DNA of 64,000 nucleotides, from assembly GCA_023129715.1 (NCBI GenBank), contig JAGMBO010000040.1:1-64000 (forward strand), given 5' to 3'. This stretch comes from Candidatus Eiseniibacteriota bacterium (GTDB lineage Bacteria > Eisenbacteria > RBG-16-71-46 > CAIMUX01 > WJJG01). The notes beneath the pieces are model-generated. The model worked only from the letters and a program-made list of their open reading frames with translations, did no database searches and was not told the DNA's origin. A program made the position numbers and the translations under genes. Below are positions 24,195 to 37,739 of this stretch, in pieces; within the stretch, counting starts at the first letter, position 1; each line of letters opens with the position of its first letter.

Positions 24195-26513
24195 TCACCT
24201 GACAACCACCACCCTCCTCACCACCTTCTCCTCTCCAACGCTGAGTCGCAGGAAGTACGCCCCTGCTGGCACTCGATGCCCCAGCGCGTCCGTGCCGTTC
24301 CAGGTGAGGGTGCCAGTGGCTTGGCCGTCGCTCATGAGAGTCCGGACCACGCGCCCGGCGGGATCGTAGATGGTTAGCCGGGCAGACTGCTCTGCTCCCG
24401 TGGGCAGCACGTAGCGGATCCGGGCGATCCTCGAGACGGGATTCGGAGACAGACTCGCCCAGAGCACCTGAGGATCCGGTTCCGCCTCAGCGGCCTGCGG
24501 ATCTGTGCACCCGACCGGCCAGGCACCGATCAGGCCACAACCCACCTGATTACAGGGCGAGTAGTTCCACAGGTGGTAGTCGCCGTTATCGGCGTCGCAG
24601 AAGCACGGGTCGGCGGAGAAGTTGCCGTTGATGCCAAACTGGCCTGCAATAGGGCCGACCCAGTCGCCGCCAGCATTTCCGTAGAGATCGCAACACGTGA
24701 GTGTGATCGCGCTGCCCGCCACAGCCACCCCCTGGGTGCTAAAGGCGATGATCGTATTCGCCAGCGCCGGCAGGATGCTGAGCGAATGGATGACGCCACC
24801 GCTCGGGGCTGAATGGCCCACAAACGTGCAGCTGGTGAGCGCGGGAGAAGAGTTGCTGCCGCATGATACTCCACCGCCAACGTTGGCCGAGTTGCTGTCA
24901 AATGTACATTCGCTGACGGTAGGCGCGGCGTTGGCACCGCAACATATTCCGCCGCCGGCAGTCTGAGCAGCATTGCCAGCGAGCATGCAGTCGAGGATCG
25001 TGGGGGAGGTGCCGGTTGAACAGAGGATTGCTCCTCCAAAGCCCTTGTTGCCGCCGATGATCGTCACTCCATCAAGCACCGATCCGGGGCCCTCACCCGT
25101 CTTGAAGACGAAACCGCGTCCCAGTCCTTGGCAATCAATGATCGCTCCCTGCCGGACCCTGCCGTGTGTCCGGATGATGATCGCCTTCCCGCGAAAGGAG
25201 ATGTCTCGATTCCCCTCGCCCGTGTATGTCCCCGCGGCGAGTTCGATGACATCCACGCTCCTCGTCTTGCCCCCAACCCCGTCGACTGCCGCCTGGATGG
25301 TGGGATAATCGCCGGTGCCATCGGGCGTGACGATCGTCCGGACACAGTAGACCGGCCATGCTCCAATCAGGCCGCACCCGGGGTTGTAGTCAGGGGCACA
25401 AGGAGAGTCATCCCACAGAGTGTAAGGGGATTCAGAGTGTACCCCGCCGCAGAAAAGGGGATCCGCGCCGATGTTCCCAGCGCTGCCAGACTGATCAGCG
25501 ATGTTCCCCACCCAGTCGCCTCCGGCATTGTCAAAGAGGTCGCAGCAAGTGAGGGTGACGTTGCCGACGGATCCGCTGTATACGCCCTCTCCCGCTGTGC
25601 TAAAGGCGACGATACTGTTCTCCAGTGTCACGGAGGCGGAGGCGCCGAAGACATACAGTCCGCCCCCCTCCGGAGCCGCGTTGCCAGAGAAAGTGCAGGA
25701 TGTAACTGACGGCGATGCGCCCCACACACCCATACCGCCGCCCGCGCTGACGGCCGAATTGCCGAGGAAGGTGCAGCCGGAAAGCGTCTGGGACGCGGAA
25801 ATGAACGCGAAGGAGTGAAACCCTCCGGAAATGTCAGCCTCGTTGTTCTCGAAGATACAGTTCGTGACAATCGGGTAACAGCCATCCCAAGCGGCCATTC
25901 CTCCAGCGGCACCCTGCGCTGAATTCCCGGCGAAAACGCAGTTGGTGACTGTTGGCGAGGAGGACACCCCGCAGTCCAACCCGCCTGCTCCGCCGGCGGT
26001 GTTCCCGGAGAAGATGCAGTCGCTGATCGCCGAATAGCAGTACTCGCAGCTTATCGCCCCTCCCCAGTCGGCATGGTTCCCGGTGAAGATGCAGTTCGTG
26101 AGGGTCGGGGAGGCGCTGGTGATGTATATCGCGCCGCCATAGACATCAGTGGGCTGATAGCCATTCGTGATAGTAAGACCCTCCACTACCGCACCGGATG
26201 TCTCACCGGAGTGGAAATGGAACCCTCGGTGCGGGTTGCCCGGACTGCCCTCGCAGTCGATGATACACAGCTCGGGCTCCCCGCTCTGCGATCTCACCGT
26301 GATTGTTTCGCCCACGTAATCGAGGTCGTAGTTCCCGTCTCCAGTGAATGTCCCGTCTGCGAGTTCGACGATGTCGCCGGCATCGGCTGAATCAATCGCG
26401 GCCTGAATCGTCGGAGCATCACCGCTGCCATCGGGCAGGACGTACCATGTCCGAGCAGCGGCGAGTGAAGGAACGAGGACGGCAAGCAGAAGACTAGCGT
26501 ACAGACGCCACAT
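24195..26513 (-). CDS. Pmp-like right-handed beta-helix surface protein with FlgD-like C-terminal module
   Basis: Repeated NCIFxGNxAxxGGG; two DGTGDYPTIQAAVD-type units; C-term GRVVRTLMSDG...WNGTDALGHRVPAGAYFLRL. Confidence 0.85.
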   Translation of the reverse strand: MWRLYASLLLAVLVPSLAAARTWYVLPDGSGDAPTIQAAIDSADAGDIVELADGTFTGDGNYDLDYVGETITVRSQSGEPELCIIDCEGSPGNPHRGFHFHSGETSGAVVEGLTITNGYQPTDVYGGAIYITSASPTLTNCIFTGNHADWGGAISCEYCYSAISDCIFSGNTAGGAGGLDCGVSSSPTVTNCVFAGNSAQGAAGGMAAWDGCYPIVTNCIFENNEADISGGFHSFAFISASQTLSGCTFLGNSAVSAGGGMGVWGASPSVTSCTFSGNAAPEGGGLYVFGASASVTLENSIVAFSTAGEGVYSGSVGNVTLTCCDLFDNAGGDWVGNIADQSGSAGNIGADPLFCGGVHSESPYTLWDDSPCAPDYNPGCGLIGAWPVYCVRTIVTPDGTGDYPTIQAAVDGVGGKTRSVDVIELAAGTYTGEGNRDISFRGKAIIIRTHGRVRQGAIIDCQGLGRGFVFKTGEGPGSVLDGVTIIGGNKGFGGAILCSTGTSPTILDCMLAGNAAQTAGGGICCGANAAPTVSECTFDSNSANVGGGVSCGSNSSPALTSCTFVGHSAPSGGVIHSLSILPALANTIIAFSTQGVAVAGSAITLTCCDLYGNAGGDWVGPIAGQFGINGNFSADPCFCDADNGDYHLWNYSPCNQVGCGLIGAWPVGCTDPQAAEAEPDPQVLWASLSPNPVSRIARIRYVLPTGAEQSARLTIYDPAGRVVRTLMSDGQATGTLTWNGTDALGHRVPAGAYFLRLSVGEEKVVRRVVVVR

Positions 26514-26764
26514 CACCCCCCCCCTTCTACCTCACGGCATCAGCGTCACGTTCAAGGGCCTTGCGGCGCTGCGATTATATCCCACGGAGGTCGTCACTGC
26601 CAGGATGGATCCGGCAGCTAGCGTAGGCGGACAAGACGGGCAACGTTTTCAATCACGGGGTCTTACAAGCACGTCGCCGTTCCATGAAACGACGACATCC
26701 ATGCGGCATTCGAGGGGCTGGCACCGCCAAGGCTTCAAATGGTGGGCGGCCATCGCAGGCGATT

Positions 26765-26967: not shown

Positions 26968-27909
26968 TCAACGAAGGCCCGCCAACCGCTCGCGCCGCTC
27001 CCGCAGAAGCTCGCGATACGAGTCCTTGAGAACCTCGGGCAGGAAGCTCGCGGTGATCAGGCAGTCCCACTCCGGCTGGGCCGCGGCCACCTTCTCAAGC
27101 ATCTCATCAATCGCCCCCGGGGACAGCCCCAGCCGTTCGCTTCCGAAGTACTCCAGAAGATCCTGCCGGCGCAGGTTGCGCTGCCTGCCATGCAGGGGCA
27201 GGGCCAGCTCATCCCTTGCACGCTGCAGGACGATGGTCGAGTTGACCAAGTCGTAGGCGGGAGAGAACTGAACGCGCGGCCCGCGGGTGATCAGCGAGAA
27301 GTTCTTCAGGTGCATATCCTCGCCGCCGGTCAGGAAGCAGAAGAGCGTGCGGCGCAGCAGCTCCAGCTTCTCCACCACCGGAAAGGTAGCGAAACGCTCG
27401 ACCAGGGCGGCGACCTGCTCCATGCTGGCGTCGTACTTGGTCTGGCGCGTGCGGCCGGCAAGCTGGGCGAAATCCTCGACGGCGAGTTTGCGGCCGCGTG
27501 ACAGCCGATCAAAGCGTCGAATGAAGTAGGTCCAGGAACCGTCGCGCGAGCGGACGAGGCCGTGCACCGGAACCTCGATGCCCACCTGCGCGGCCAGCCG
27601 CATGGTCAGGTCTTCGTTCTCCGGGAGGCATGGGAACCGCGGATTCGGTGGTTTGAGGATGTACTCGCCTCCGCGATCGACGATTGCGAAGCGTCCCTCC
27701 TTGACCAGCAGCTTCGCGCTGAGCTTGGGCTGGACTCCCTGGATCGACATCTTCGTCGCCCGCTGGGCGGCCTCTCGCAGTTGCTCCTCGGCGTCATAGG
27801 GGAGATCCTCCAGGTCTGAGAGCGCCCGTGACAGTCGGCGTAGGCCACGAAGGGAGTAGGTCGATTCGCCGGCCTGTAGCGACTCATAGGTGATCGGGCA
27901 CCGCCTCAT
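26968..27909 (-). CDS. hipT: HipT-like (short HipA) Ser/Thr kinase toxin
   Basis: KMSIQGVQPKLSAKL glycine-rich loop, YFIRRFDRL, CFLTGGEDMHLKNFSLI catalytic loop, FSPAYDLVNSTIV; lacks the HipA N-terminal subdomain; ATGA overlap with upstream ORF. Confidence 0.88.
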   Translation of the reverse strand: MRRCPITYESLQAGESTYSLRGLRRLSRALSDLEDLPYDAEEQLREAAQRATKMSIQGVQPKLSAKLLVKEGRFAIVDRGGEYILKPPNPRFPCLPENEDLTMRLAAQVGIEVPVHGLVRSRDGSWTYFIRRFDRLSRGRKLAVEDFAQLAGRTRQTKYDASMEQVAALVERFATFPVVEKLELLRRTLFCFLTGGEDMHLKNFSLITRGPRVQFSPAYDLVNSTIVLQRARDELALPLHGRQRNLRRQDLLEYFGSERLGLSPGAIDEMLEKVAAAQPEWDCLITASFLPEVLKDSYRELLRERRERLAGLR

Positions 27910-28229
27910 GCCGCAGCCTCATCCGCCGGCTCCACGGTGACCGCGCCGACGAGATCCCGTCCCACCGCCAGAAGCTGGCTCATGGGATCGTCGCGATCGA
28001 TCTTCGCCAGGCGCAGCAACGCCTCGAGCCGATCGCCCTCCGGCAGGAGGCCGTCGAAGAATGGTGGGAAGCGGTCGAATTCATAGGGCGCGGATTTGGA
28101 GGGTAACGCCAGCGAGATCGGCGGGCCCTCGTAGTCCCTGTCATAGGCGAGGCGATAGTGCCGATTGCGCTCGATCTCCGTAAGAACTCCCGCAGGCCGA
28201 CCGTGGACCAGGACCCTGGCGCTACGCAT
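27906..28229 (-). CDS. hipS: HipS-like protein (stand-alone HipA N-terminal subdomain)
   Basis: MRSARVLVHGRPAGVLTEIERNRHYRLAYDRDYEGPPISLALPSKSAPYEFDRFPPFFDGLLPEG; overlaps hipB and hipT. Confidence 0.85.
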   Translation of the reverse strand: MRSARVLVHGRPAGVLTEIERNRHYRLAYDRDYEGPPISLALPSKSAPYEFDRFPPFFDGLLPEGDRLEALLRLAKIDRDDPMSQLLAVGRDLVGAVTVEPADEAAA

Positions 28230-28494
28230 CCTTCGGCTCCCCTTCGGCCCGGCCGGTGAGCGGACTGCGCCAGAGCAGATCAATGTTGAGGGTCGTGAGG
28301 ACCCGCATCAGGGTCTCCAGTCGGACAGTGGCCTTGCCCTTCTCGATATCGTAGACGACGCTCTTGCCGACCCCGGCGAGGCGCGCAAGACCCTGTTGGG
28401 TGAGACCGGCGGCCTTGCGGTGGCTCCGTACAGCGTTGCCCAGCCGTATGGTCCAGTCTTGCGTGGTCATGAACCCCCGCTGATCCCTCGTCAC
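28222..28494 (-). CDS. hipB: HipB-like XRE-family antitoxin
   Basis: IRLGNAVRSHRKAAGLTQQGLARLAGVGKSVVYDIEKGKATVRLETLMRVLTTLNIDLLW; start could be 28494 or 28470. Confidence 0.88.
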   Translation of the reverse strand: MTRDQRGFMTTQDWTIRLGNAVRSHRKAAGLTQQGLARLAGVGKSVVYDIEKGKATVRLETLMRVLTTLNIDLLWRSPLTGRAEGEPKDA

Positions 28495-28503
28495 GCAGCT
28501 AGT

Positions 28504-28667
28504 ATTGCTGCCATGGCGGCAATCTGCCCTGCTTTGGGCCAGGAGTCAAGTGGTAGAACCAGGAAAGCAACAGGAATCCCTGCCATGGCAGCAATATGAT
28601 ATGCTTTGGACTGCGAGTCAAGTGATAGAATCAGAAATGCGGCCGCAATTGCTGCTATGGCAGCAAT
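28504..28667. promoter_or_regulatory. three palindromic candidate HipB operators at exact 72-bp spacing
   Basis: ATTGCTGCCATGGCGGCAAT (28504-28523), ATCCCTGCCATGGCAGCAAT (28576-28595), ATTGCTGCTATGGCAGCAAT (28648-28667); the spacers of units 1 and 2 are also similar. Confidence 0.75.
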
Positions 28668-28686: not shown

Positions 28687-31600
28687 TTATCGAATAAGCA
28701 CGATCCTCGATGACCCCCTAAACTCCTTTGTCTCAAGCCGATACAGGTAGATCCCCGTGCTGACCGGCAGACCGTGATCATCCCTCAGATCCCAGGTCGT
28801 CGCGTGCCGCCCCCGTCCCCTCGACTCATGATCGAGTAGGGTTCGGACGAGACGACCGGTCGTATCGAATATCTGAATCGACACATCGGCAGCAGCAGGC
28901 AGATCATACCGGATGGCGGCACCAGATGCCCGCCAGGTTGCCAGACACGAGTGCAGCCTGATCGTCTCCACGACCTCGGTAGGATTGCCGATGCCCGCAG
29001 CCTCCTCGTCGACCACAACTGTCTGATCCGCCGCGACGTCCATCACCCGGCTGATGAATCCACTCGGCCAGTACACGTACAGAGTGTCGACGACGCTCCA
29101 GGTGCCCAGTCCGAAGTGAGCCACCAGGGAGTTCTGTGAGTAGAGGCCCGACCCGCCCGAGATTTCTCGGACCTGGCCCCCACCACCGGAGACCATCCGA
29201 ACGCGCGCGCCGATGCCGCTCGCGTTCGAGAACGAGCCGAGCAATCGCACCTTCAGCCAATGGTTCCAGTTCCCAGCGTTGTTCTTGTAGAGTGCATTCG
29301 GAGTATTCCAGTTCGCCAGGTAGAGATCTTGATCTCCATCAGAATCGTAGTCGGCCCAGGCCATGCCGTAGCATCCGACCGTACTTCCCAAAGGCGCATC
29401 GGTAACATCGGTGAATGTACCAGATCCATCGTTGCGGAACAATCGATCGGCACCTATTCTACTGCCAACATACAGGTCCAGGTCACCGTCGTTGTCATAG
29501 TCGGCCCAGCCCACGCCGCGCGCCCGTCCAACATCACCAAGGCACCCCGTGGCATTGGTTACGTTCGTGAACACACCAGACCCATCGTTGCGACAGAGCA
29601 CGCATGGTCTGTCCGCATTCCCCATATACAAGTCGAAATCCCCGTCGTTGTCATAATCACCCCACGCAACACCATATGTCCGGGCACTATTTCCAAGTGG
29701 ACCGCTGGTTACATCAGTGAAGTCGCCGTCACCATCATTGCGAAGAAGCCGGTTGTTGTTTGATCGGGCCAAATAGAGGTCGAGATCTCCATCCAAGTCA
29801 TAGTCGCACCAGGCGACTCCCCTAGCATCGCCCTGGTCACCCAGAGGGTAGCTAGTAACATCCGCAAACGAACCGTCACCCAAGTTGCGTAGCAACACGT
29901 TCGACTCGTTTCCTCGCACCAAGTACAAATCTACGTTGCCGTCGTTGTCATAGTCGCCGCAGGCGATTCCTTGTGCGTATCCGGTGTCGCCCACAGGACC
30001 GCCCGTGACATCCTCGAAACCGCCAAGGCCATCATTCCTGAAGAGTTTGTTGGCCTGGCCGTCATTGGCGAGATAGAGGTCGAGGTCGCCATCGTTGTCG
30101 TAGTCGGCCCAGGCAACCCCTCTGCCCTCGTTGGAGTCGTCAAGGGGGGGGGAGGTGGCGTTCGTGAAGGATCCATCGCCTTCGTTGCGGAAGAGGATAT
30201 TCGCCTCACCTAGTTGCGAGAGGTAGAAGTCTTGATCTCCATCGTTATCATAGTCGCCCCAGGCAATGCCCCTTCCGGGGCCGTCATCCCCAACAGGACC
30301 GCTGGTTGCATCCTCGAAATCCGTGATATCCAGCTTGAGGTAGAAATGCATCTCGGGGGACCCATACTGAACATGCGCGACGCCGGTATCCGGAACCGCG
30401 ATCCAGCCCGCTAGCTCCTCGACGATGAAGTGGTACGTCGAATCAACGCTCAGTCCCTCGCAGGCGAAAACCCCCGCACTGTCCGTGAGGCACTCGCTAA
30501 TGAGTATGCCTTCCGGAGCCCTGACAAAGACGGTCAGGGCCGCCGCAGGATATGACTCCTGAGTTGTGATGTCGACCATGAACACGCTGCCGGAGACCTC
30601 AACGGTGGGACGCGATACGAACACCCAGAAACTGTCGACGACAGTATTGTCGAAGGCGTCGACTGCAGAGCAGGCCACCTGGGTGGCGCCGATCTGGAAG
30701 TAGCTGCCGCTGAGGGGATCGAAGCTCACGACCGGCGCGGGATCGCAGACATCGATGGCCGTGGCGAGTTCTGTAAAGAGAACCACCACACTATCTTCCA
30801 GGGTGCTGGCCTCGACTATGTGGGTGCTGAGAGAGAGCTCCGGCGGGATCGTGTCGATGACCGTGATCGTCACCGGGTCCGTATCCACTAGGCCACGTTC
30901 ATCCTCGACCGTTAGGGTAAAGACCTGTGGGCCGAAACCGGCCGGAACCTCTACGACGGACTCACTGCCCACAGGCGCCATCGTGGCATCCGCCCAGGAG
31001 TAGGTTAGAAAGTCCTCTTCCGGATCCGAAGACGCATTGCCGTTCAGCGTCGCAATCGCCCCGTCGAAGCTGGTCCCTTGAATCGCCTGATTTTCGCCGG
31101 CATCTGCGATTGGGGCCTGGTTGACCGGAACCTCAGCAACACTGACGATTGCCTCCTCGCCTCCACTAGGCACCTCGACGCCGGTCAGGACGACCCACCA
31201 GGTTCCCTCCTCGGGCTCTTCGATTTGATAGTACTCGTAGGTCGGGCCCTTGATGTGAACAACGTCGGGATCGACGGTATCGCGATTGATCTCTTGCCCG
31301 GTCGGGGACTCCAGCGTCAGCATGACGTCGCTTCCCGAGAAGTTGACGCCGAAACTCACGCCCGAGATTCCCACGATCGGGAGCGAGTTCCGGATCTCCT
31401 CACCGGGATTGACCAGGATCGGACTGAACGGCTTGTAGGACCGGGATCCCGAGCAGATGTCGCGGGACATACCCGCTGCTCCAGCCTCGGCGCTGGAGCC
31501 AAAGATCCATCCCCCTTCGCCCCCGGCTCCGCCGGTTCCCTCCGGACCAACGCCCGTGTAGTCGTTGTTGGTCTCATATACCTGGCTGTCCCGATCCGGC

Positions 31601-34600
31601 ATGATGCCGCAGGAGCACCCGCCGATGCCACCGCCGCCGCCGCCACCGCCACCGCCATGACCGCCCCAGCCTCCGTCACCGCCATCGCCGGCGTCCTCGA
31701 GAGGACTATTCAAGGGGGGATCGATCGTGACAGCACTCGGCCCTCCCCCTTCGCCGTGGGGTCCATTGGCTCCCCCGTCGCCGCCCGAGCCTCCTGCCCC
31801 TCCGGCGCCGCCGCCGGTCGTGTGGAGCTCATTGCCCTTGATGACCGGCACGGAGTTGTTGAGATAGATCGCAAAGCTGCCGCCGCCGGGCTGACCCCCA
31901 TCGCCGGCAAGTCCCCCACCGGCACCACCGCCGCCGCCGCCGCCACCACCACCGTAGTAGAAGAAGGGCAGAGGAAACGGGGGCACGCAGCCTACGAAGG
32001 GAACGCTGAGATAACACCGCATGGTCAGGCAGGGGCCACCGCCCCCGCCGCCACCACCGCCCTGCCCCGGTGTTCCCGATCCGCCGGCGGTCCCACTCAC
32101 TCCGATCCAATCGCCCGACTCGAAACTGCCCCAGCCCCTGCCGCCCTCGCCCGCGATCCCGCCGGACCCCGGCCCTCCGGATGAGCCCTCGCCGCCGTCG
32201 TTTCCGTGGATGGCGACATAGAAGGGGCTGGATGCGTCAAAGGCGACATGCGCTGTGCCCCGCGCCCCACCGGAGATCCCATCCACACTCCGATCGCCGC
32301 GGTATCCATCCACACGACCGACGTCGTCCAGGAACTCCTGCATCGCACCCCAATCGAACCCGTCCAGCATCCAGGTGAGGCCGCCGCCACCACCCCTCCC
32401 ACCATTGTGTCCACCAGCTCCGGCACCTCCACCGCCGCCCTTGCCTCTCTTGTGACCATCCTTTCCCTCAGCCCCGGCAACCCCGACCGCTCCGGCCGCT
32501 CCAGGAGCCCCGTCGCCCCCGCAACCTGCGTGGATGACATTGTTCGAGATGATCAGGTCGGTCCAACTGTCGGTAACCTTGACCCCGATCGAGTTCTCGC
32601 CGGCCTGGCCACGACCGGAACCATCCGCGCCGTCGCCGGAGTAGATCGTCAGCCCCTCGATCCAGGTGGGGTCATTCACCGACAGCGCTGTAATCGCCGT
32701 CGCCGAATTCCCCCGCGCGTCGATCGTGGTCGGCTCATTGGCCGTGTAGTCGGCCTGTGGCCGGATCCAGATCGTCTCGCCGCCGGTCTGCGCCGGCTTG
32801 TCGAATCCGCCGTAGACGCTCATGCCCTCCAGAATGGTGATGCCGGCGCTCGGGTAGTCTCCCTCGTGGAGGTAGATGTCGGCGGGTACGGGTGGCGAGT
32901 ACGTCATCGCCTTCTGGACGGCGTAGTCGATCGTCGCCAAGGGATCGTTCCAGCCGCCACTGTTGCCATCGTTGCCCCAGCTAGGATCATCCGATACAAA
33001 GACGGCGCGCTCCGTATCTTCCAAGACGGTGATGATGACGCCCTCATAGTCGTCATATCCCCATACATCGTGGACCTGCAAGCGCACCAAGAGACTCTGA
33101 ACCGTTGAGGGAGCTACGAAGCGATAGGCAACCGAGTCGTCGGGACTGAGCTCCTCGACATATGGGGTGGCGTTGGGCCAAGCCCCCTCAGGAATCGACC
33201 AGGAGTAGGTGATCTGATTGCCGCCCTGAGAGTCGACGCTACCCGATCCGTCCACCGTGACGACCTGACCAAAGCTCACGAACTGGTCTTCAGAGGCCTG
33301 AGCCAAATCCGCCTCCGACACTGGAATCCGTTGATTCGGCGCAACCTGCATGAGCTGCGAAATCTGTCCGCTGGGCCAGAAGACTCGCAGCGTATCCACG
33401 ATCGTGTGGGCTCCGAGGCCGAACTCGACGGTAAGCGAGTTATGGACGTTCACACCTCCGTCGCTGCACACCTGCCGCCACGCTGTCAGAGAGCCTGCCT
33501 TGATTTGCAGCCGGGCCCCGATCCCACAACGATTCGACACATCACCTGCCAGATCGACGTGAAGCCAGTTGTTCAAGTGTCCGATCTCATTGCGGAAGAG
33601 ATGATCGTCGTCCTGGGGCGGTGGAACCGGGCCGGAGTAGATCGGTTGAACGACGAAGAGATCCAGATCGCCATCCTCGTCGTAATCCCCCCAGGCCCCG
33701 TTCATGGCAAAACAGTCGCTCAACGGAGAGGCCGTTACGTCGACGAAGCCCCCCGGCCCCTCATTGCGGAAGAGCCTCATGCCATCGAAGAAGGAGCCCA
33801 TGAGGCATAGGTCGAGATCGCCGTCATTGTCGTAGTCCCCCCATAGGGGATTGTCATGGCAGCTGGGAGAACCCTGGCAGCTACCGAGATCTCCGTGGGT
33901 TTCGTCATCAAAGTTTCCGCTGCCGCCGTCGTTGCGAAAAAGATAGCCCTTCGACAGGAAGAGATCCATGAAGCCGTCGTTGTCATAGTCACCCCAGGCT
34001 GCGGCACCGCCCGGCCCGTCTCCAGGATACCACCACCAATGATCGATGAATCCCCCTTGCCCATCGTTCTCGAAGAGTCCCTGACATGCGGAGAAGAAAT
34101 CCATGTCGCCATCGTTGTCGTAGTCCGCCCACGCCGCGTCGACGCACCAGCCCCGCTGGAGGCATAAGGGCGTGACGTCGGTGAATGATCCATTGTCGTT
34201 GCGCAATAGGCGGTTCAAGTCCCCTCCCGCATAATGCTCGTTCAACAGAAACAGGTCGAGATCCCCGTCGTTGTCATAGTCGATCCAGTCCCCCGCGAAT
34301 CCGGGATTCGCATCACCCAGGGGCCCGTCTGTTTCCCGATCGAATACCCCCGCACCTAGATTTCGGAATAGTGCATTGGATTGGGAATTTCCGGGGTCCG
34401 GCTGCGTGTAATTCACCAGATAGAGGTCGAGATCGCCGTCGTTCTCGAAGTCGCCCCAGGTTGCTTCGCTGCCGTTACCTAGATCCGAGAGCTCGTGGCC
34501 TTGCATCCAAACGAAGGCGGTGCCGCTGTAGGCATTGCGGTACAGGACATTCGCCATATCAAAGCTCGTGATGTACAGGTCGAGATCGCCGTCACCGTCG

Positions 34601-34788
34601 TAGTCGATCCAGGACACTCCCTGAGAGTCGCCGGCATCCGCGGGAAGCATCCCGGTCATATCGGTCCATTCCGGATCGCGGCCGCGTTCTCCTGAGGTTT
34701 CGTTGCCGGCGGCGAGACATGGCAGACCGGCGGTAAGGTGCAGACCGAAAAACAGGGCACAGGCGAGCACACGGGCACACGGGCACAC
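28687..34788 (-). CDS. 2033-aa secreted protein: two VCBS/FG-GAP arrays, two ASPIC/UnbV modules, Gly-rich and PKD/HYR-like regions, FlgD-like C-terminus
   Basis: Many DYDNDGDLDLY repeats; two GIGARLxIxxG...NSLxxxFGLGxxxxVDTLxVxWPSGxIS modules; Gly-rich middle; C-term GRLVRTLLDHESRGRGRHATTWDLRDDHGLPVSTGIYLYRL. Start ambiguous (see findings). Confidence 0.88.
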   Translation of the reverse strand: MCPCARVLACALFFGLHLTAGLPCLAAGNETSGERGRDPEWTDMTGMLPADAGDSQGVSWIDYDGDGDLDLYITSFDMANVLYRNAYSGTAFVWMQGHELSDLGNGSEATWGDFENDGDLDLYLVNYTQPDPGNSQSNALFRNLGAGVFDRETDGPLGDANPGFAGDWIDYDNDGDLDLFLLNEHYAGGDLNRLLRNDNGSFTDVTPLCLQRGWCVDAAWADYDNDGDMDFFSACQGLFENDGQGGFIDHWWWYPGDGPGGAAAWGDYDNDGFMDLFLSKGYLFRNDGGSGNFDDETHGDLGSCQGSPSCHDNPLWGDYDNDGDLDLCLMGSFFDGMRLFRNEGPGGFVDVTASPLSDCFAMNGAWGDYDEDGDLDLFVVQPIYSGPVPPPQDDDHLFRNEIGHLNNWLHVDLAGDVSNRCGIGARLQIKAGSLTAWRQVCSDGGVNVHNSLTVEFGLGAHTIVDTLRVFWPSGQISQLMQVAPNQRIPVSEADLAQASEDQFVSFGQVVTVDGSGSVDSQGGNQITYSWSIPEGAWPNATPYVEELSPDDSVAYRFVAPSTVQSLLVRLQVHDVWGYDDYEGVIITVLEDTERAVFVSDDPSWGNDGNSGGWNDPLATIDYAVQKAMTYSPPVPADIYLHEGDYPSAGITILEGMSVYGGFDKPAQTGGETIWIRPQADYTANEPTTIDARGNSATAITALSVNDPTWIEGLTIYSGDGADGSGRGQAGENSIGVKVTDSWTDLIISNNVIHAGCGGDGAPGAAGAVGVAGAEGKDGHKRGKGGGGGAGAGGHNGGRGGGGGLTWMLDGFDWGAMQEFLDDVGRVDGYRGDRSVDGISGGARGTAHVAFDASSPFYVAIHGNDGGEGSSGGPGSGGIAGEGGRGWGSFESGDWIGVSGTAGGSGTPGQGGGGGGGGGPCLTMRCYLSVPFVGCVPPFPLPFFYYGGGGGGGGGGAGGGLAGDGGQPGGGSFAIYLNNSVPVIKGNELHTTGGGAGGAGGSGGDGGANGPHGEGGGPSAVTIDPPLNSPLEDAGDGGDGGWGGHGGGGGGGGGGIGGCSCGIMPDRDSQVYETNNDYTGVGPEGTGGAGGEGGWIFGSSAEAGAAGMSRDICSGSRSYKPFSPILVNPGEEIRNSLPIVGISGVSFGVNFSGSDVMLTLESPTGQEINRDTVDPDVVHIKGPTYEYYQIEEPEEGTWWVVLTGVEVPSGGEEAIVSVAEVPVNQAPIADAGENQAIQGTSFDGAIATLNGNASSDPEEDFLTYSWADATMAPVGSESVVEVPAGFGPQVFTLTVEDERGLVDTDPVTITVIDTIPPELSLSTHIVEASTLEDSVVVLFTELATAIDVCDPAPVVSFDPLSGSYFQIGATQVACSAVDAFDNTVVDSFWVFVSRPTVEVSGSVFMVDITTQESYPAAALTVFVRAPEGILISECLTDSAGVFACEGLSVDSTYHFIVEELAGWIAVPDTGVAHVQYGSPEMHFYLKLDITDFEDATSGPVGDDGPGRGIAWGDYDNDGDQDFYLSQLGEANILFRNEGDGSFTNATSPPLDDSNEGRGVAWADYDNDGDLDLYLANDGQANKLFRNDGLGGFEDVTGGPVGDTGYAQGIACGDYDNDGNVDLYLVRGNESNVLLRNLGDGSFADVTSYPLGDQGDARGVAWCDYDLDGDLDLYLARSNNNRLLRNDGDGDFTDVTSGPLGNSARTYGVAWGDYDNDGDFDLYMGNADRPCVLCRNDGSGVFTNVTNATGCLGDVGRARGVGWADYDNDGDLDLYVGSRIGADRLFRNDGSGTFTDVTDAPLGSTVGCYGMAWADYDSDGDQDLYLANWNTPNALYKNNAGNWNHWLKVRLLGSFSNASGIGARVRMVSGGGGQVREISGGSGLYSQNSLVAHFGLGTWSVVDTLYVYWPSGFISRVMDVAADQTVVVDEEAAGIGNPTEVVETIRLHSCLATWRASGAAIRYDLPAAADVSIQIFDTTGRLVRTLLDHESRGRGRHATTWDLRDDHGLPVSTGIYLYRLETKEFRGSSRIVLIR

Positions 34789-35051: not shown

Positions 35052-37739
35052 CTAGTTCAGTCCCTCGAAGTTCCTGATCAGCACGACATCCCGCCTCGTC
35101 TCGCGACGCAGGACAGCGAGCGAATCACCACTGGGAGACCAGGCGAAATCAGCGATGCGCCCTTCGGCGAACCGGGTGACCGGCTCGGGGGAACCCCCGG
35201 CGAGCGGAATCTGCCAGATGTTGTCGACACCTCCCTCCAAGCGCACGATCTGCAGCGCGTCTCCGCCGCGTGCCCAGTGGACCACATCGCTGCTGATCCC
35301 CAGGGTGTCTATGGGTGTGCCGTTCTCCATCGAGACGGTGACAATGCAACTCGCTCCCTGGTCGGTGAGGGCGTAGCAGGCGAAGATCCCACTGTCGGGG
35401 TGGACATCCGCCAGCCAAGCGTTGAACTCGATCAACCGTATGCCGGCGCCTCCCGTCGCGGACGCTCGCCAGATGCTGTAGTTCTTCTTCTTCACGACGT
35501 GGTAGAGGATCGACTCTCCGTCGGGGGCATAGAGCGGGAAGACTTCCTCCGCATCCCCCGAGTAGTTGGTCAGCCGGCGGGGATCGCCGCCATCCGCATC
35601 CGCGATCCAGATGCGACTCCTGCCCGAGCGGTTAGAGAGGAAGGCGATCGATCGACCGTCGGGCGAGACGGTGGCGCCGATGTTCATCTCACCGTCGGTC
35701 GTCAGCGGACGCGCGTTCCGGCCGTCGGGATCGGAGACGTACAGATGCAGTGCTTCACCCTCGAGCGCCTCGTAGATCAGGCGCCCGTCATGCAGCCAGG
35801 AGACCGAGGCGATCCAGTGCGCCATCCGCGACGCAATCCCGAACTGATGAGCTGAATCGGGCTCTGCCTTTGGCGCCACCCACATCGAGAGCTCGGTTTC
35901 CTGCTGGACTGCGGCCAGAAGCGTTCCGGTCCGGTCGGTGCTGACACTCCCATAGCTGGTTAGGCCGCTGGTCAGCGGGCGCACCGCTCCGTCGGTCGCG
36001 GAGACATGCCAGAGGCGGGCGGGTTCGTGGAAACGGAAGTTTCGGAACCCCGCCAGAACGATTCCACGGTCCCCGGGAAGCCAGGCCATGCTCAGGACCG
36101 CCACCCAGGTGTCCACCGAAAGGGACCGCAGGCGATTGCCGTCCAGGGTGACTGCCGCCAAGCCCGAGTCAAGAATGCCCGCGGACGCGGTGTCGGTGAT
36201 GGCGATCTCGGTGCCGTCTGGCGACCAGGCCATGCTCCCATAGTGACCGAGGCTGCGGCGGAGCAGGGTGCGCTCCTCGAAGCCATCAACGCTGGCAACG
36301 ACAATCTCGGCCTGATCGTCCACTGACCGGGCGAAGGCAACCTGCGCCCCGTCGGGTGAGACTGCGAGAACATCCCTGACTCCATCGATGAGCTTGCGAG
36401 GCTGTCCTCCGAGCATGGGGACCTGGCAGATAGTCACGACCTCCATACCGGATTCCCGGTGCAGATAGAAGATGTAGTCTCCATTGGCGGGGATCTGCGG
36501 ACTGCTCAAATGGGCATCAGAAGGAGAGACGACCTCGGCCACGCTCCCCGTCGAGAGCTGTTTCAGGTGCAGGCTGCTCATCCCCTTCTCCGACTGAACG
36601 TAGGCGATGTACTTGCCATCGGGTGAGATCGCCGCGTCCCCGGCGTTTCCGGAATTGGTGGCGGGGACGATCTCGATCGCGCTGGCAGCCAACGGGTCTC
36701 CTTCGGGGATGGAAGGGCGCTTGAGAACGCCGCTGAAGGTCACGACGAGGGCGGTGACCGCGAGCCCGGCAGCCGCCAAGGCAAGCCAGAGCACTCTGCG
36801 CGCCCGCGGCTCTGCATCTGCAACTGTTGCCGGCGACAGCGACAGCTCCCCGGAATCGATTTCCTCCTTCAGGTCCTGCAGCTCATTGCGCAACTCGAGC
36901 GCGCTCTGGTATCGCCGTTCGGGTTCCTTGGCAAGGCAGCGCTTGATGATCCGGCCCAGGTGGCGGGGCAGCGTTCGCTTCACCTGCGTCACCGAGGGAG
37001 GCGTGTCTTTCAGGATCGAGGAGATCGTCGAGATCTGCGTATCGCCCTTGAAGGGCCGCTCGCCGGTCAGCATTTCGTAAAACAGAATCCCCAGCGAGAA
37101 AACGTCCGAGTGCTGATCGAGTGGCTTGCCCTGGGCTTGCTCAGGGGACATGTAGGCGGCGGTGCCCAGGATCTTGCCCTCACCGGTGATATCCGACTCC
37201 AGGGGAACCGTGGCGCCCCCGGAGCCGAGACCCGGGGTACCGGCAGTCTCGTCCGCCGGCGCTCGCCGGACGGCCGATTTCGCCAACCCGAAGTCGAGCA
37301 CCCGCAGGCGTCCCCCGTCATCGACCATCACGTTGGTGGGTTTTAGATCCCGATGGGTGATGTTCGCAGCGTGAGCGCGGCTGACCGCATCGGCGAGCGG
37401 AACCGCCAGCGCGAAGAAGCGGTCCAGAGCAAGACCCCGGGGTGGAATCAGCTCGGAGAGCACCTGCCCCCGGATGAGCTCCATGGTGAGGAAAACAACG
37501 CCATCGGCTTCTTCGACCGAGTGGATCGTGACGATGTTCGGATGGTTGAGGGCGGCGACGGTCCTGGCCTCGCGTTCGAAACGCTGACGCCGCTCGGGAT
37601 CGTCCGTCCATTCAGCGGGGAGAACCTTGAGAGCGATCTCCCGATCGAGCTTGGTGTCGCGGGCGCGGTAGACCTCGCCCATGCCGCCGGAGCCGATCCG
37701 TTCCAAGATCTCGTAGTGGGCGAGCGTCCGTCCGACCAT
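35052..37739 (-). CDS. Ser/Thr protein kinase with C-terminal TM and WD40-like (PD40/TolB) propeller
   Basis: YEILERIGSGGMGEVYRARD, ALKVLP, THRDLKPTNVMVDDGGRLRVLDFGLAKS, TAAYMSPEQAQG; PDGxxIAF repeats. Confidence 0.92.
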   Translation of the reverse strand: MVGRTLAHYEILERIGSGGMGEVYRARDTKLDREIALKVLPAEWTDDPERRQRFEREARTVAALNHPNIVTIHSVEEADGVVFLTMELIRGQVLSELIPPRGLALDRFFALAVPLADAVSRAHAANITHRDLKPTNVMVDDGGRLRVLDFGLAKSAVRRAPADETAGTPGLGSGGATVPLESDITGEGKILGTAAYMSPEQAQGKPLDQHSDVFSLGILFYEMLTGERPFKGDTQISTISSILKDTPPSVTQVKRTLPRHLGRIIKRCLAKEPERRYQSALELRNELQDLKEEIDSGELSLSPATVADAEPRARRVLWLALAAAGLAVTALVVTFSGVLKRPSIPEGDPLAASAIEIVPATNSGNAGDAAISPDGKYIAYVQSEKGMSSLHLKQLSTGSVAEVVSPSDAHLSSPQIPANGDYIFYLHRESGMEVVTICQVPMLGGQPRKLIDGVRDVLAVSPDGAQVAFARSVDDQAEIVVASVDGFEERTLLRRSLGHYGSMAWSPDGTEIAITDTASAGILDSGLAAVTLDGNRLRSLSVDTWVAVLSMAWLPGDRGIVLAGFRNFRFHEPARLWHVSATDGAVRPLTSGLTSYGSVSTDRTGTLLAAVQQETELSMWVAPKAEPDSAHQFGIASRMAHWIASVSWLHDGRLIYEALEGEALHLYVSDPDGRNARPLTTDGEMNIGATVSPDGRSIAFLSNRSGRSRIWIADADGGDPRRLTNYSGDAEEVFPLYAPDGESILYHVVKKKNYSIWRASATGGAGIRLIEFNAWLADVHPDSGIFACYALTDQGASCIVTVSMENGTPIDTLGISSDVVHWARGGDALQIVRLEGGVDNIWQIPLAGGSPEPVTRFAEGRIADFAWSPSGDSLAVLRRETRRDVVLIRNFEGLN

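Follow-up and report, generated by a model that had tools for sequence, protein, structure and literature searches.

The minus-strand genes hipB, hipS and hipT, together with the DNA directly upstream of them, very probably constitute an autoregulated chromosomal type II toxin-antitoxin operon, a HipBST module of the Legionella type with three phased operators. The window, ie the whole 64,000-nt stretch of DNA that was analysed, is from a Candidatus Eiseniibacteriota bacterium (contig JAGMBO010000040.1). Judged from sequence, this reading draws on the protein family, the splitting of the genes, the intact catalytic and P-loop residues, the three operators with their conserved spacing, and the covariation of those operators with HipB. 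The locus is ordinary in kind and was correctly recognised in the original prediction, which lacked the operator array; one worthwhile generalisation follows from it. The features are:

26968..27909, minus strand: hipT, HipA-core Ser/Thr kinase of 313 aa; P-loop Ser55 in KMSIQGVQ; kinase residues Lys86, GEDMHLKN with Asp198/His200/Asn203, and Asp220
27906..28229, minus strand: hipS, stand-alone HipA N-subdomain-1 of 107 aa; ATG 28229, stop 27906
28222..28470, minus strand: hipB, XRE/Cro-type HTH regulator of 82 aa from ATG 28470; recognition helix GVGKSVVYD
28505..28522: operator O1 (predicted), TTGCCGCCATGGCAGCAA read on the minus strand, 34 nt before ATG 28470
28577..28594: operator O2 (predicted), TTGCTGCCATGGCAGGGA read on the minus strand, 72 bp from O1
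28649..28666: operator O3 (predicted), TTGCTGCCATAGCAGCAA read on the minus strand, 72 bp from O2
28495..28638: pair of 72-bp units that share 74% identity, an operator with its spacer making up each unit
28593..28621, minus strand: candidate sigma-70-like promoter, TTGACT-17-CATATT, ending at O2, a consensus match only

The overlapping trio of XRE regulator, N-subdomain and kinase was recovered as originally described, and the domain matches agree with it. HipB and HipS share 8 nt (28222-28229), and HipS and HipT overlap by ATGA. HipB passes TIGR03070 (80.8 bits against a cut-off of 71.65) and carries a Cro/C1 HTH; its best solved relative is Legionella HipB (8ezt, 1.3e-18). HipS is a full-length Couple_hipA domain (PF13657, 2.4e-24) matching Legionella HipS (7vkb, 6e-29), and HipT is a full-length HipA_C domain (PF07804, 9.2e-46), the only one in the genome, matching Legionella HipT (8ezr, 8.6e-104) with a solved homologue at about 53% identity. 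Matches of this order to three solved Legionella proteins (E-values 1e-18 to 1e-103) are beyond chance. An alternative in-frame GTG at 28494 would extend hipB to 90 aa (28494-28222). ATG 28470 is the likelier start, because a G-rich stretch precedes it and the protein then begins near the start of Legionella HipB. The catalytic and P-loop residues of HipT are intact by comparison with the Lp-type family, and both the GEDMHLKN catalytic loop and the SIQG loop are present. The latter had been called a variant, but it is no oddity: its Ser, Gln and Gly are each at least 97% conserved across the Lp-type family, and the corresponding loop of Legionella HipT reads SVQG.

The gene order B-S-T, the N-subdomain in its own open reading frame and the lack of any fusion in relatives support the call of a three-gene HipBST over a two-gene hipBA, in which kinase and N-subdomain lie in one chain. 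The original prediction took E. coli O127 HipBST and HipA as the systems to align with. The O127 kinase does match HipT significantly (112 bits, 2.4e-31), yet Legionella HipT, at 350 bits, is the right comparator, and E. coli K-12 HipA reaches only 24-29 bits. HipS and HipB are likewise closest to the Legionella proteins. An O127-type module phosphorylating TrpS would have the same gene order and domain split, but it is very unlikely here. HipT has a single P-loop serine (SIQ) in place of the two-serine SIS loop, HipS in alignment with Legionella HipS has Asp/Arg where E. coli HipS has W65, and the toxicity of Legionella HipT was not rescued by TrpS (PMC10653801). In the kinase phylogeny that had been proposed as a check, the window HipT sits inside the Lp-type set, grouping with proteins from metagenome-assembled genomes of Planctomycetota, Acidobacteria and one further bacterium. 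Since the window proteins bear the sequence marks of that subclade, including the single P-loop serine, the locus is assigned on sequence to the Legionella (Lp) type and not to the O127 type; the other Legionella-type traits seen in it are the B-S-T order, the S-x-Q-G serine and three operators separated by about 53 bp. Legionella-type HipBST is a separate subclade, widely present in the FCB group, in which HipS Trp65 is unused and the target is neither TrpS nor GltX (PMC10653801). As neither TrpS, GltX nor PheST rescued the toxicity of Legionella HipT (PMC10653801), the tRNA-synthetase target expected in the original prediction should not be assumed, and the target of HipT is probably other than TrpS.

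Relatives were collected as 84 loci, comprising 80 bacterial loci and two on viral contigs found by profile, plus L003 and L019. HipT was found in all 84, and HipS lay in its own frame in every one except L044, where the match was partial. A broken, frameshifted hipA could mimic a tripartite operon, since short overlaps might be left by a frameshift, and L113 and L118 are among annotated relatives with a broken appearance. This explanation is nonetheless extremely improbable: fused HipS-HipT in one frame occurs in none of the 84 relatives, each of the two genes has a start of its own, and the catalytic residues are intact. Frameshift of an otherwise fused hipA in close relatives, which the original prediction had named as the observation that would count against it, was thus not found. 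In L113 (2501-3389) and L118 (2134-3364), on Bacteroidota plasmids, HipT and/or HipS are annotated in pieces, and these copies may be decaying.

Most of the host's relatives that were sampled lack a close HipT homologue: a match of any kind came from 12 of the 98 other genomes, and in just two did it reach at least 40% identity along almost the full length of the protein. Such patchiness is as expected for toxin-antitoxin modules. A phage origin was considered and rejected, because a search of 50,697 phage records gave nothing resembling HipT. Relatives were present on just two viral contigs; these putative viral contigs (L100 and L101, IMG/VR) have HipBST with divergent HipB recognition helices, GVSRK and GVSRY. 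The PADLOC defence models gave only generic HTH matches and two weak kinase matches. The Legionella adelaidensis HipT (L019, 3001-3933) is annotated as a Dot/Icm effector; its orthologue has been argued not to be translocated above control (PMC10653801). Directly upstream of the operator array in the window lies a secreted-type protein of 2033 aa that contains FG-GAP/ASPIC repeats and has a FlgD-like domain at its C-terminus (28687-34788). On the downstream side of the operon is a beta-helix protein whose tail is similar (24195-26516), and 35052-37739 encodes a fusion of a Ser/Thr protein kinase with WD40-like PD40 repeats.

A repeat search upstream of hipB revealed three palindromes, of unequal symmetry, at a period of 72/72 bp. 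A matrix trained on nine Legionella-group loci only (cut-off 7.0) picked exactly these three sites in the window, with scores of 19.5, 11.1 and 14.8, the next best falling below -3. The possibility that they are a dispersed genomic repeat was rejected, as a pattern scan of the 4.83-Mb genome confined the pattern to the hip locus. The two spacers are identical at 38 of 54 positions (shuffling p about 2e-4), which makes tandem duplication the probable way in which this array grew. The TTGACT of the candidate promoter recurs at the equivalent place in the unit adjoining O1. No known RNA element or tRNA was found.

Published Legionella operators are 18-nt sites with 53-bp gaps (PMC10653801), and in the Legionella loci the operator period was 71-72 bp. 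The Legionella adelaidensis plasmid copy has three sites of related sequence at 72/71, and these match three Legionella operators tested by EMSA (PMC10653801). Outside Legionella, 60 of 72 loci had at least two matrix sites, compared with none of 65 control stretches downstream of hipT. Two tests independent of the matrix agree. For 52 of the 81 upstream regions the best 18-mer self-match lay at a lag of 70-72 bp, and in a motif-blind search for three similar palindromes with gaps of 30-110 bp, judged against dinucleotide shuffles and real control DNA, both gaps were 70-73 bp in 56 of 80 loci (1/240 shuffles, 1/71 control regions). Several related loci had no clear operator triple, and L004 (40% identity) had no clear array. 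Conservation is mostly limited to the operators, with spacers little conserved, and spacers are duplicated in only 2 of 21 other equal-gap loci. Arrays of four or more sites were seen in L070, L077, L026 and L027; those of L070 and L077 include 41/31-bp steps summing to about 72 bp.

The operator sequence follows the HipB recognition helix. Loci whose helix reads GVGKT or GVGKS have TTACYG...CRGTAA operators (62 loci, 7 unassigned), and those with GVGKN have TTCCC...GGGAA operators (8 of 9, one unassigned); none pairs one helix class with the other operator class. This covariation supports HipB as the reader of the sites and makes a single recognition-helix position, T/S versus N after GVGK, a likely specificity switch. 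The independent events are few, as on the tree all GVGKN loci but one, from Denitrovibrio, fall in a single Desulfobacterota clade. L022, L100 and L101 have other helices and different palindromes at the same 71-73 bp, the scores of L100 and L101 being within the shuffled range. Spacing was thus kept despite altered operator sequence in the GVGKN loci and L022.

The operators are also likely to be helically phased. Within the significant loci 83% of gaps fall within 1.5 bp of a multiple of 10.25 bp (29% expected), most of them belonging to the 71-bp class. The other gaps in the Legionella-type set, mainly 31, 41, 61 and 82 bp, are mostly near whole helical turns. Taken alone against a 10.5-bp period and corrected for relatedness, these gave p values of 0.0004 to 0.08 according to how the loci were clustered. 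Related loci are not independent, and when they are clustered at 65% identity the phasing of the non-71 gaps alone is no longer significant (p 0.08). Three or more changes on starred branches of the tree are needed to explain 61 bp, and two or more to explain 41 bp; these repeated changes are graded indicative because the tree is a quick one with long branches. The sample of more distant, sister HipBST modules from Bacteroidota, taken from plasmid records, has operators unrelated in sequence to the Lp type, with gaps of 40-41 bp in L105, L106, L107, L109, L113 and L114 and of 61 bp in L108, L110, L116 and L118; the scores of several of these arrays barely exceed those of shuffled sequence or fall among them.

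In the mechanism we propose, HipS would act as antitoxin by binding HipT as a detached N-subdomain and keeping the P-loop with its Ser55 away from the ATP site, as in structures from Legionella and E. coli (PMC9325769; PMC10653801; PMC10627512). A HipB dimer on the three palindromes upstream of hipB would repress the operon, alone, and probably more tightly when loaded with HipT or HipST. The toxicity of the kinase, its neutralisation by HipS, the binding of HipB to three operators and the joining of HipT to the HipB-DNA complex are expected here by analogy with relatives, the last having been reported in Legionella (PMC10653801); the two groups working on Legionella HipBST come to different conclusions about whether HipB contacts HipT and about E. 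coli toxicity (PMC10653801, PMC9325769). With operators 72 bp apart, which is about 7 full helical turns, bound complexes would lie on one face of the DNA, where they may bridge or loop, presumably in this host also. Such bridging is plausible because HipT joins HipB-DNA (PMC10653801), E. coli HipBST hexamers pair in solution (PMC10627512), and LacI loops of 6-8 turns are feasible in vivo with repression that oscillates with spacing (PMC5081198; PMC1762422).

The serious rival to bridging is that the three operators are bound independently, their 71-bp spacing reflecting inheritance plus unit duplication, or clearance for RNA polymerase, and involving no contact between complexes. The window spacers are duplicates of each other, which would fix the spacing without function; HipB alone shifts single-site 50-bp fragments (PMC10653801); and the 71-bp class that dominates the phasing signal may be one ancestral state. 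We nevertheless consider independent binding less likely than not. Duplicated spacers are rare in the other equal-gap loci and spacer sequence is unconserved, yet spacer length holds within 1-2 bp across phyla, the changes to 61 and 41 bp arose several times and are whole turns, and the spacing outlasts changes of operator sequence. Bridging between same-face complexes can be extended, with a little less than even confidence, to all split-HipA (HipBST) modules. They would be autoregulated by helically phased multi-operator arrays on which HipB-HipT(-HipS) complexes at 4, 6, 7 or 8 turns bridge or loop the promoter; loaded toxin would close the repression loop and its release open it, the spacing being held while operator and HipB helix co-evolve.

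In the openly searchable literature, Legionella is the one group for which a three-operator array has been described. That the operators are conserved more widely, phased and covarying with HipB seems new, provisionally so because of that scope. An arrangement reported for one genus becomes a geometry conserved across many phyla and kept when the operator sequence changes, set mostly to whole helical turns, which gives a rule for the regulation of the family that can be put to the test. Altering the spacing would test directly for bridging or looping by HipB-HipT complexes, and the geometry suggests how the toxin-antitoxin switch controls its own expression.

As a module, the operon adds one more case to a family whose structures have been solved and which is known to occur widely in the FCB group. 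E. coli K-12 HipBA shares with it the kinase core and HTH regulator, but HipA holds the N-subdomain in one chain and HipB is the antitoxin. E. coli O127 HipBST (PDB 7ab3-7ab5) has in common the tripartite order, the HipS antitoxin fold and the HipA-core kinase; it differs in its separate subclade, its SIS loop with two serines, its HipS Trp65 and its target TrpS, and Lp-type operators are absent from its promoter (PMC10653801). The Bacteroidota plasmid systems (eg Runella pRUNSL02, L106) likewise have split B-S-T genes and several palindromic operators on one helical face, but their HipT is only about 36-44% identical, with GTACCC...GGGTATA operators at 41 bp or other sequences at 61 bp. The Legionella pneumophila system (lpg2368-70; PDB 8ezr, 8ezs, 8ezt, 7vkb, 7vkc) is of the same gene order and domain split; Legionella-group HipT homologues are 54-56% identical to the window HipT. 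Both have the P-loop serine in S-V/I-Q-G, no HipS Trp65, and three 18-nt operators at even intervals, separated by 53-54 bp. The window differs in an operator half-site of TTGC instead of TTAC, in its duplicated spacers, in a B/S overlap of 8 nt instead of 4, and in a host unrelated to Legionella.
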